Positions 52,700-58,576 of a stretch of DNA of 64,000 nucleotides are shown in pieces (position 1 is the first letter of the stretch; every line of letters starts with the position of its first letter). The stretch spans positions 1 through 64,000 of the forward strand of contig DASUUK010000041.1 of assembly GCA_036374135.1 (NCBI GenBank), in the 5' to 3' direction. The position numbers and the translations under genes were made by a program. This DNA comes from Euzebyales bacterium. GTDB lineage: Bacteria; Actinomycetota; Nitriliruptoria; Euzebyales; JAHELV01. Under the pieces are notes generated by a model. It worked only from the letters and a program-made list of their open reading frames with translations. It was not told where the DNA came from and ran no database searches.

Positions 52700-53684
52700 T
52701 CACGCGGACTGGTCGGCCCTTTCCGTGACGGTGATCACGACGTTGCCGACCTTCTGGCCGGTCTCGACGTACCCGTAGGCGGCGACGATCTCGTCCAACG
52801 GATAGCGCCGGTCGATCACGGGCGTGAACCCCCCGGACGCGATGAGGTCACCCAGCCCACGGACCATCGCCTGGTCGCCCATGGGCAGCGGGAACTGGAC
52901 CCGCCGACGGCCGAACGCCGGCGTCAGCAGGGCCAGCAACGGATTCATGCTCAGCGGCCCCAGCTCCGACGACACGTAGATCCCGTCGGGCTTGAGCATC
53001 CGGCGGCAGCGGCCGAACGACGTCTTGCCCACCGCGTCGATGACCACGTCGTAGGCCTGCACGTCCGCCGTGAAGTCCTCGGACGTGTAGTCGATGACCA
53101 GGTCGGCGCCGAGGCGTTCGACCAGATCCACGTGGGCGGTGGCGCACACGGCGGTCACGACGGCGCCGCGGGCCTTGAGCAGCTGCACGGCGGCTGACCC
53201 GATGGCGCCGGTCGCGCCGTAGACGCAGACGTCGTCACCCGCCGCGACCTTCGCCCGCCGGATCATCGACAGCGCATAGTGCGCACCCTCGGTCGCGGGC
53301 GTCATCTGCGCGAACGTCGTCCCCGGGCGGCATCGCGGCGACCATCCCGTCCGCCGACACGGTCAGGAGCTCCGCGTGCCCGCCAAAGGTCGGCTCGACG
53401 TACCCGAACACGGCATCTCCGACGACGAATGTCGTCACGTCGCGGCCGACCGCGACCACCTCACCGGCGAACTCACTGCCGAGTGTCGTGGCCCGCGGGC
53501 GCGTGAGCCCGAAGAACAGCCGCGCGAACCAGGGGGTGGGCGTGCGGTAGCCGCAGTCGGTGCGGTTCACCGTGGTCGCGTGCACCCGCACCAGGAGCTC
53601 GCCGTCGGCGGGCTCTGGAACATCGACGTCGGTGACCCGCACCACCTCGGGCGGACCGTACCTGGTGTGGACCGCCGCCCGCAT
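52700..53684 (-). pseudogene. zinc-type quinone oxidoreductase/alcohol dehydrogenase with frameshift
   Basis: Two frames together encode a ~325-aa MDR-family NAD(P)H oxidoreductase. The 5' frame (start ATG 53684, MRAAVHTRYGPPEVVRVTDV) carries the GroES-like half through GGHAELLTVSADGMVAAMPP. It then reads out of frame. The downstream frame has TPATEGAHYALSMIRRAKVA and the NADPH motif VYGATGAIGSAAVQLLKARG, to the stop at 52700. The break is at a CCCCGGG run (~53321-53327): removing one base restores GTTFAQMTPATEG. It may be a true recent mutation or a homopolymer sequencing error. Confidence 0.8.
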
Positions 53685-53797
53685 CGTCGCTGCTCGTGTT
53701 GCCGACCGATAAGTCACGGCTATGCCTGACATTGTAAGGCTACGCCGCACACTGTAGCCATACGCCGTAAGGTAATCAAGGAGCAGCGCGACGACGG

Positions 53798-54340
53798 TCA
53801 GGCGCCCGCCACGCGTGCGCCCAACCGCTGGATCGTCCGGTGCGTACGGACGGTGATCCCGCCGAGATCGTCACCGATGGCCGTGAGGTCGAGGTCCGAG
53901 GTGGAGATCCCCGCACGCGGCAGCCAGTACAGATCGCGGCCGTCGATCGTCAGACGGTCGTCGGCTGTCGCGTGGGCGAGCACCGCTGCACGCGCAGCAG
54001 CGGATGGCGCAGCATGCAGCAACCCGACCTGTACGCGTCCCTGCGTCGCGCCAAGCTCCCGCCCGGTGAACGGCGCATGGTCGGCGATGCGTTCGATCTC
54101 GTCGACGGCTCGCAGGAAGCTCGGCACCTCGTAGTCGAGTTCGGTGCGCAGCCCACGCTCGATCGTCTCGCGAAGGGCTGACTCGTCAGCGGTGTCAGCT
54201 GAGAAGATGACGTTGCCGCTCGCCATGAACGCGGTAGCGCCGGCGAACCCCATCCGCTCGAAGCACGCACACAGCTCGTCGTTCGTGATCCGCCGTTGGC
54301 CGAGGTTCATGCCCCGCAGGAATGCCACGAAGGTTGCCAT
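53798..54340 (-). CDS. DUF1697-domain protein
   Basis: A 180-aa protein with the full DUF1697 pattern: N-terminal FVAFLRGMNLGQRRITNDEL, then FAGATAFMASGNVIFSADTA and VPSFLRAVDEIERIADHAPF, and a C-terminal GGITVRTHRTIQRLGARV. The function of the family is unknown. A -10 box TATCCT lies on the minus strand six bases before the ATG (54352-54347), a leaderless arrangement. It lies between the broken oxidoreductase and the ArsR-AHSA1 gene, all on the minus strand, without overlaps. Confidence 0.88.
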   Translation of the reverse strand: MATFVAFLRGMNLGQRRITNDELCACFERMGFAGATAFMASGNVIFSADTADESALRETIERGLRTELDYEVPSFLRAVDEIERIADHAPFTGRELGATQGRVQVGLLHAAPSAAARAAVLAHATADDRLTIDGRDLYWLPRAGISTSDLDLTAIGDDLGGITVRTHRTIQRLGARVAGA

Positions 54341-54364: not shown

Positions 54365-55156
54365 TCACTGGTTCGCGGGCTGGGCGGCACTGTCGACGAA
54401 GCGGTCGAGCACCGGCTCCCACCCGGTGTCGTACCCGGCACGGCGGTCCGCCGCCACGTCACCGAGCTCCTCCCAGCCGTCGTGTCGCAGATCGACGCGG
54501 GTGCCACCGTCGACAGCCGAGAAGCGGACCTCCAGGCGCGACGCGGCGACTGGCGACGGGTTGGGATGCCACGAGAGCACGACGCGGTTGGGTGGATCCC
54601 ACGCGAGGACGTCGGCCCAGCTGTGCTCGGTGCCGTCGGCGAGCACCTCGGTCACCCGGCCGCCCACACGACCGTCGAAGCGGATGTCAACGATGCGTCC
54701 CGCGTCACCGTCTCCGGTGTCGGCACTGATCGAATGCGTGCCGGTCGGCCACCATGCCGCGATCCGATGTGTGAAGAGATCGAACGCACGGGTGATGTCG
54801 AGCGGGACGGTGCGTGTCTTGGTGACCGGCGCGATGCCGGAGGTGGTCGTCATGGCAGCCTCCATTCGGGCGGCGCGCCCGAAGTGGTCGAGCACGCCGT
54901 CCCAGTGCTGATCGATCCAGGAGCGCAGCGCGGCCAGCCCTGCTGGATCTGTCCGGTAGATGCGTCGCGTGCCGTCCGCGGCCACACCGACCATCCCGGT
55001 CCTGACCAGGACCTTCAGGTGCTGTGACACGGCCGGGCGACTGACCGGTAGGTCGTTCGCGAGCTCGCCGACGGACCGGGGGCCGCCGACTGCGAGCATC
55101 TCGAAGATCGCCCGACGGGTCGGATCGGCGAGGGCCGCGAAGTGATCTCCGGTCAT
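54365..55156 (-). CDS. ArsR-type HTH fused to AHSA1/SRPBCC domain
   Basis: A 263-aa two-domain protein. Residues ~5-90 are an ArsR winged helix ([20 protein letters not shown], then [20 protein letters not shown]). Residues ~110-255 are an AHSA1/START-like lipid-binding fold ([40 protein letters not shown]). More often these two domains are encoded by separate neighbouring genes. The fusion suggests that ligand binding in the SRPBCC pocket directly controls DNA binding. The start ATG 55156 lies 10 bases from a double palindromic operator. Confidence 0.88.
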
Positions 55157-55165
55157 GCATGGAAC

Positions 55166-55198
55166 GTAAGTCACAACTTACCGTAAGTCAATACTTAC
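55166..55198 (-). promoter_or_regulatory. double operator of the ArsR-AHSA1 gene
   Basis: Two perfect palindromes of the same kind stand side by side: GTAAGT-CACA-ACTTAC (55166-55181) and GTAAGT-CAAT-ACTTAC (55183-55198), one base apart. They lie immediately upstream of the ArsR-AHSA1 start codon, an ideal autorepressor site for two dimers. Confidence 0.75.
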
Positions 55199-58252: not shown

Positions 58253-58576
58253 GTGTTGTCGCCACGACGCCACCGCGTCCCCCGCCACCGCCGCCCGGAC
58301 GGGCGCGCCGTCGGGGGGCCCACGACGGTCTTCAAGGTCATTAGTGATCCGACCCGCCGTCGGATCATGGAGCTCGTGAGCGACCGCGAACGATCGGTCG
58401 GGGAACTGGTCTTCGAGTTGCAGATGGATCAGCCGACCGTGTCCGAGCACCTGCGCGTCCTGCGCGAGACGGCCGTCGTGTCCGTCCGCCAGGAGGGTCG
58501 CCGGCGCTGGTATGCGCTGTGTGCCGCACCGCTCACCGAGCTCGACGACTGGATTACCGGCCTCCGAAAGGACTGA
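58253..58576 (+). CDS. ArsR-family transcriptional regulator
   Basis: A 107-aa winged-helix protein. The core TVFKVISDPTRRRIMELVSD, RSVGELVFELQMDQPTVSEH and LRETAVVSVRQEGRRRWYAL are typical of the ArsR group that includes SdpR. No CxC metal-binding motif is seen, so it probably senses something other than arsenic or zinc. GTG 58253 follows GGGAGG; the first ~24 residues are basic and not conserved in type. No partner gene is obvious: the next gene downstream is convergent. Confidence 0.85.
   Translation: MLSPRRHRVPRHRRPDGRAVGGPTTVFKVISDPTRRRIMELVSDRERSVGELVFELQMDQPTVSEHLRVLRETAVVSVRQEGRRRWYALCAAPLTELDDWITGLRKD

Follow-up and report, generated by a model that had tools for sequence, protein, structure and literature searches.

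An ArsR-AHSA1 fusion gene with twin palindromes at its start

The window analysed here, a stretch of 64,000 nucleotides from a Euzebyales bacterium, contains on its minus strand a single open frame (54365–55156/55174) that encodes both an ArsR winged helix and an AHSA1/SRPBCC domain, with two palindromes at its beginning and a DUF1697 gene behind it. The features of the locus are the following:

53798–54340, minus strand: DUF1697 gene, 24 nt downstream of the fusion stop
54365–55174, minus strand: ArsR-AHSA1 fusion ORF, 269 aa from GTG 55174 or 263 aa (P0001) from ATG 55156
54383–54835, minus strand: AHSA1/SRPBCC helix-grip domain, about aa 108–258
54854–54866, minus strand: junction GGAGG-N5-ATG, in frame (Met101), apparently the kept ribosome-binding site (RBS) and start codon of the AHSA1 part
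54926–55132, minus strand: ArsR winged-helix domain, aa 9–77 of P0001, with the recognition helix at aa 40–52 carrying R40 and Q45
55166–55181: operator site 2, GTAAGTCACAACTTAC, overlapping the GTG start codon
55183–55198: operator site 1, GTAAGT-N4-ACTTAC, GTAAGTCAATACTTAC, farther from the gene and matching, in relatives, the site that spans the -10

Profile matches to HTH_20 (1.1e-14) and HTH_5 (7.3e-12) at aa 9–56 and to AHSA1 (PF08327, 2.5e-10) at aa 132–254 of P0001 bear out the first-pass annotation, which had read an ArsR helix-turn-helix and an SRPBCC pocket protein in one chain. The DUF1697 gene probably shares a transcript with the fusion. The malate synthase G gene (start 55453) is divergent from it, and its control from the same region is possible. 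Farther downstream, at 52700–53750 of the minus strand, two overlapping ORFs, each in its own frame, divide a PIG3-like zinc/quinone oxidoreductase gene between them; a frameshift, a pseudogene or an assembly error could account for this. A stand-alone ArsR-family gene lies a few kb from the fusion (58253–58576, plus strand), behind an HbpS-like gene.

The two palindromes are both exact, as had been noted, with one base between them and 17 bp from start to start. Allowing up to 2 mismatches, the window contains 2 such sites against 0.05 expected, and none of 100 shuffles reached 2. They had been placed directly upstream of the gene; they do flank its start, but they lie over it rather than wholly upstream because the protein starts at GTG 55174, inside site 2, or at ATG 55156. 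A sigma-70 promoter scan gave no match and the best -35 of the window agrees in 4/6 positions, weaker than that of many relatives; the promoter layout that we suggest for the window is drawn from the relatives alone.

A genome-wide search for other GTAAGT-N4-ACTTAC sites, proposed together with the first reading, returned the window pair and no further exact copy in 3.98 Mb (115 contigs). Sites with 2 mismatches occur at 4 places elsewhere in the genome and those of the reversed control pattern at 11. A regulon was rejected, since the genome has no other exact site and the weak ones do not exceed the reversed control; the same lack of other exact sites suggests that the fusion works locally. 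Local-only action need not hold everywhere, because phoP and dosR have been reported as targets of the Mycobacterium tuberculosis homologue Rv2034 (PMC3338718) and overexpression of M. smegmatis MSMEG_6762 has been reported to kill cells via another target gene (PMC9416677).

Conservation of the operator among ArsR–AHSA1 loci

To the window locus we compared its relatives in a set of 69 non-redundant ArsR–AHSA1 loci, from which 12 loci duplicating longer ones and loci without an ArsR match at 1e-5 had been left out and 22 more dropped (15 because no AHSA1 follows, 6 as duplicates and 1 for its short upstream region). Sites were counted when they matched at least 10 of the 12 defined bases between -100 and +20 of the ArsR domain start, with expectations taken from mononucleotide shuffles. 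GTAAGT-N4-ACTTAC sites were present at 51 of the 69 loci (0.14 expected) and twin sites 16–17 bp apart at 40 (0.00 expected), counts to be read in the light of a phylogenetically non-independent set in which a single branch (support 93/89) holds 26/69 ArsR rows and plasmid sequences may recur among the genome loci. The spacing was 17 bp at 37 of the twin loci and 16 bp at the other 3. Of these 40 loci, 24 have a -35 that matches TTGACA in at least 5/6 positions and always precedes site 1 by 14–18 nt, and in 39 of them site 2 contains an in-frame start (27 ATG/GTG/TTG and 12 GTA). From this spacing and these in-frame starts we infer that, in the relatives, site 1 would lie across the -10, and the start codon, probably that of a leaderless message, would be covered by site 2. 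The overlap of the second operator site with the start codon is new here.

That the palindromes are the operator of the repressor, as first proposed, is upheld by their conservation in relatives, by their co-variation with the recognition helix (see below) and by the DNase I footprint of Rv2034, which lies on CCGTAAGT-N4-ACTTACGG and is accompanied by autorepression (PMC3338718). This footprint makes the window operator one of a known type, and both the class of the fusion and its operator are strongly supported.

The GTA codons at this place belong to one Rhodococcus clade, in which all 14 loci (L050–L056, L090–L094, L096 and L097; 12 in the non-redundant set) have GTA exactly where relatives have GTG. 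None of the 14 has an ATG, GTG or TTG start at the expected place of ArsR, and dN/dS values of 0.04–0.27 in 9 pairs show purifying selection on their ArsR part. GTA might be used there as the start codon of a leaderless message. At these loci, the PLSDB gene table annotates the SRPBCC part alone.

Two residues of the recognition helix predict the half-site

The residues at positions 40 and 45 sort the 69 loci into helix classes with their own half-sites: R and Q with GTAAG, R and R/K with GTAAC, Q and Q with ATAAG, and the helix classes did not cross the operator classes. The helix SRPAVSQHL (R..Q type) is shared by 48 loci, the window included; 47 of them have GTAAG on a 5-bp half-site measure, against none in the other classes. 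Misses in this first set amounted to 4/54 for the R/Q type (among them one SRPAVSQHL locus, and also L046), 2/8 for the R/RK type (L016 and L070) and 1/4 for the Q/Q type (L057), with 3/69 loci left without a prediction. The rule was fixed in writing ahead of the scoring of any new locus. When applied to 33 new places, phylogenetically non-independent of the old ones, it made 18 predictions for AHSA1-linked genes, 15 of them right against 0.03 expected, and was right in 3/5 unlinked cases; 10 of the 33 were too short or yielded no prediction. It failed for L189, L190 and L199 (8/10 sites) and for both SQ-type ArsR genes that lack an AHSA1 partner (L143 and L144).

The prediction of the operator half-site from R40 and Q45, as derived from these sequence comparisons, is new here. 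Literature searches for such a helix code and for an operator of ArsR + SRPBCC proteins found nothing, which leaves room for an earlier publication of the code. Together with the twin-site layout, this two-residue code should allow operators to be predicted for many repressors of this kind.

Fused and two-gene relatives

The near relatives mostly consist of two genes, ArsR followed by AHSA1, mostly with an ATGA stop/start overlap and a one-frame shift, in agreement with the earlier statement that these domains are usually encoded by adjacent genes. The fused forms are:

the window
L066, in genome G130
L050–L056, seven plasmid loci of the Rhodococcus clade
L090–L094, five further genome loci of the Rhodococcus clade
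L031 and L046, two distant rows

By a count made by eye between the shared GTC GAA CAA and the AHSA1 ATG, the linker of the Rhodococcus fusions is 1 base longer than that of the two-gene locus L096 (91% ArsR identity), so a net one-base difference divides fused from unfused. On the tree, the fused label changes 5 times, at least 3 of them forced by well-supported branches, although the tree is built on few columns and the window fusion cannot be placed on it.

The junction of the window resembles that of other fusions, with AGGAG-N5-ATG in L066 and in the four Rhodococcus-clade loci inspected and AGGAG-N6-ATG in L031; as a baseline, 37 of 1091 internal in-frame ATG codons (3.4%) in long ORFs from the fetched DNA have AGGAG or GGAGG at a spacing within the same span. 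The retention of this internal RBS and ATG in fused lineages, also new here, would be either a passive legacy of the two-gene arrangement or a retained second start. A free AHSA1 product made from it is plausible on these sequence grounds, and because the signals are kept the fusion may be something other than a simple sensor in one chain.

Structural model

Modelled with 56 rows, the fusion reached a pLDDT of 92.6 and a pTM of 0.67, which makes the relative placing of the two domains uncertain; a single-sequence prediction was poor (pLDDT 42.7) and was set aside. In the model, R40 and Q45 sit on a helix spanning aa 40–52, and a long helix (aa 71–104) runs into the AHSA1 domain, where aa 111–117 form the first strand. 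The modelled AHSA1 part has the helix-grip fold of SRPBCC/AHSA1 proteins. Its best Foldseek matches include TxnO9 (5z36), M. smegmatis Ms6760 (3uid), termed a structural homologue of Rv2035 in a paper title, CalU16 and CalC. VIA-align gave a Z of 15.7 to 3q63 (133 aligned, 2.9 Å), among many further SRPBCC rows, and for the ArsR part 14.3 to the Rhodococcus ArsR 2oqg. A sequence search at E 0.01 found no PDB chain spanning both domains.

A probable autorepressor and its alternatives

Domains, operator, conservation and helix–operator co-variation could all be established at the level of the sequences, and DNA binding and autorepression by the fusion are predicted by homology with Rv2034. We consider it probable that the fusion is an Rv2034-type autorepressor joined in frame to its usual operon partner, an AHSA1 protein of the Rv2035 (COG3832) type. 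A dimer of ArsR domains would bind each palindrome, and two bound dimers would cover promoter and start codon and turn the gene off, probably together with the DUF1697 gene behind it. The input would most likely arise when the AHSA1 domain, coupled to the ArsR dimerisation helix (aa 71–104), is occupied or chemically modified, and the retained internal RBS may yield some free AHSA1 protein as well. Release of the operator by a ligand in the AHSA1 pocket, as suggested at first, is plausible; that ligand had been pictured as lipid- or steroid-like, and nothing that we found favours a steroid. More tentatively, the locus might show a one-component sensor caught in the course of its formation, with linker indels fusing an ATGA-coupled pair in several lineages and the RBS being kept, such that a sensor fusion and free AHSA1 would share a ligand while start-codon twin operators and the two-residue code would prevent cross-talk among paralogues.

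The alternative that survives best, which we think possible but clearly less probable than the preferred reading, is that the ArsR part is a mere regulatory wrapper, holding down the level of a CalC- or TxnO9-like AHSA1 resistance or detoxification protein that binds or degrades a harmful compound, and that no signal passes between the domains. By sequence and by structure, TxnO9 and CalC are indeed among the nearest relatives of the AHSA1 part, the retained internal RBS also favours this reading, and the neighbours in relatives include genes for MFS transporters, a second SRPBCC protein, MDMPI_N and O6-methylguanine methyltransferase. In one actinobacterial MAG, an O6-methylguanine-DNA methyltransferase gene (L027:2373–2933) immediately precedes the ArsR-AHSA1 pair. 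However, with no signal between the domains the operon would stay uninduced, and every full-length AHSA1 copy would be tied to a repressor.

An assembly indel or fresh frameshift, the true state being two genes with an ATGA overlap, appears unlikely. The near two-gene relatives are one frame off, the ATGA and RBS are intact in the window, and the neighbouring oxidoreductase gene on the same contig is frameshift-split. Nevertheless, by eye the frame remains ArsR-like to about aa 97, which would confine an indel error to about 12 nt, and the fused state recurs in the finished Rhodococcus plasmids, in the 5 further genome loci and in G130.

We give even less credence to a fused toxin-antitoxin, with the AHSA1 part as toxin and the ArsR part as antitoxin and repressor. 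The ArsR-COG3832 (Aha1) pair was predicted as a toxin-antitoxin-like module by comparative genomics in 2009 (Makarova et al., PMC2701414), Rv2035-Rv2034 has been catalogued as a toxin-antitoxin pair (PMC3968373) and, by its title in reference lists, the Msmeg_6760 structure paper speaks of a toxin. Yet, in the parts of the reports cited here, the 2009 authors themselves preferred antibiotic resistance (PMC2701414), the COG3832 protein of Stenotrophomonas maltophilia had no toxicity in Escherichia coli or S. maltophilia (PMC7650669), and growth of M. smegmatis was stopped by overexpressed ArsR but not by MSMEG_6760 (PMC9416677). A toxin fused to its antitoxin would, besides, not be released by antitoxin decay. 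Type II modules consist of two separate proteins; here there is one fused frame, in which an internal RBS and ATG are kept.

Finally, a classical ArsR/SmtB sensor for metals or metalloids, to which a match of the fusion protein to HTH_metalloreg (NCBIfam, 74.5 bits, cut-off 55) might point, was rejected as highly improbable because the whole protein (263 aa, ArsR part included) contains no cysteine and thus lacks the cysteine-based metal site (α3/α3N) of such sensors. The 2009 survey, in the part cited, also describes metal motifs as missing from the AHSA1-linked ArsR subfamily (PMC2701414).

Comparison with known systems

The ArsR–AHSA1 pair is widespread, and in drug-tolerant M. tuberculosis it reportedly ranks with the most strongly induced modules (PMC7650669). 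Its two-gene version is already known and characterised in Rv2034-Rv2035, although the pair is poorly understood. Compared by its published description rather than by sequence, Rv2034-Rv2035(-Rv2036) is alike in its AHSA1-linked ArsR, its GTAAGT-N4-ACTTAC operator and the SRPBCC gene Rv2035 that follows in the same operon (PMC3338718); the window has the corresponding R..Q helix (SRPAVSQHL), an operator over its own promoter and an AHSA1/SRPBCC partner directly downstream, fused in frame instead of encoded separately. The published description of Rv2034, as far as cited here, contains one palindrome, whereas the window and most relatives have two, 17 bp apart, and the third gene is of MDMPI_N type in the Mycobacteriaceae-side relative L103 but DUF1697 in the window. 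The ArsR-COG3832 module has the same two domains and likewise lacks metal motifs, but it is fused in the window, and toxicity of the partner was not seen in the cited parts of PMC9416677 and PMC7650669. Single chains of this architecture have precedents in Pfam, where a 2008 review of the Bet v 1 fold noted ArsR-family members among the AHA1-domain proteins (PMC2577659).

The same genome contains a second, distinct ArsR-AHSA1 fusion (G000 contig C65, ~102350–103132; L163:1351–2133, minus strand), whose start is preceded by a palindrome of its own, ATGTGACC-N4-GGTCACAT; its family differs from that of the window in the recognition helix and in the palindrome, GTGACC-N4-GGTCAC. Four more ArsR genes with AHSA1 neighbours (contigs C35, C43, with two, and C102) differ in their recognition helices and lack an exact GTAAGT-N4-ACTTAC site. 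CalC, a self-sacrifice resistance protein, and TxnO9, a polyketide enzyme, rank with the nearest SRPBCC proteins of solved structure in the sequence or Foldseek comparison; both are stand-alone SRPBCC proteins (chains of 154–158) without a DNA-binding domain. Natural fusions indicate that the two proteins serve one function, and they would allow ligand binding and DNA release to be read out directly on a single purified chain; the window fusion is a useful variant of the Rv2034–Rv2035-type pair, not new in kind.
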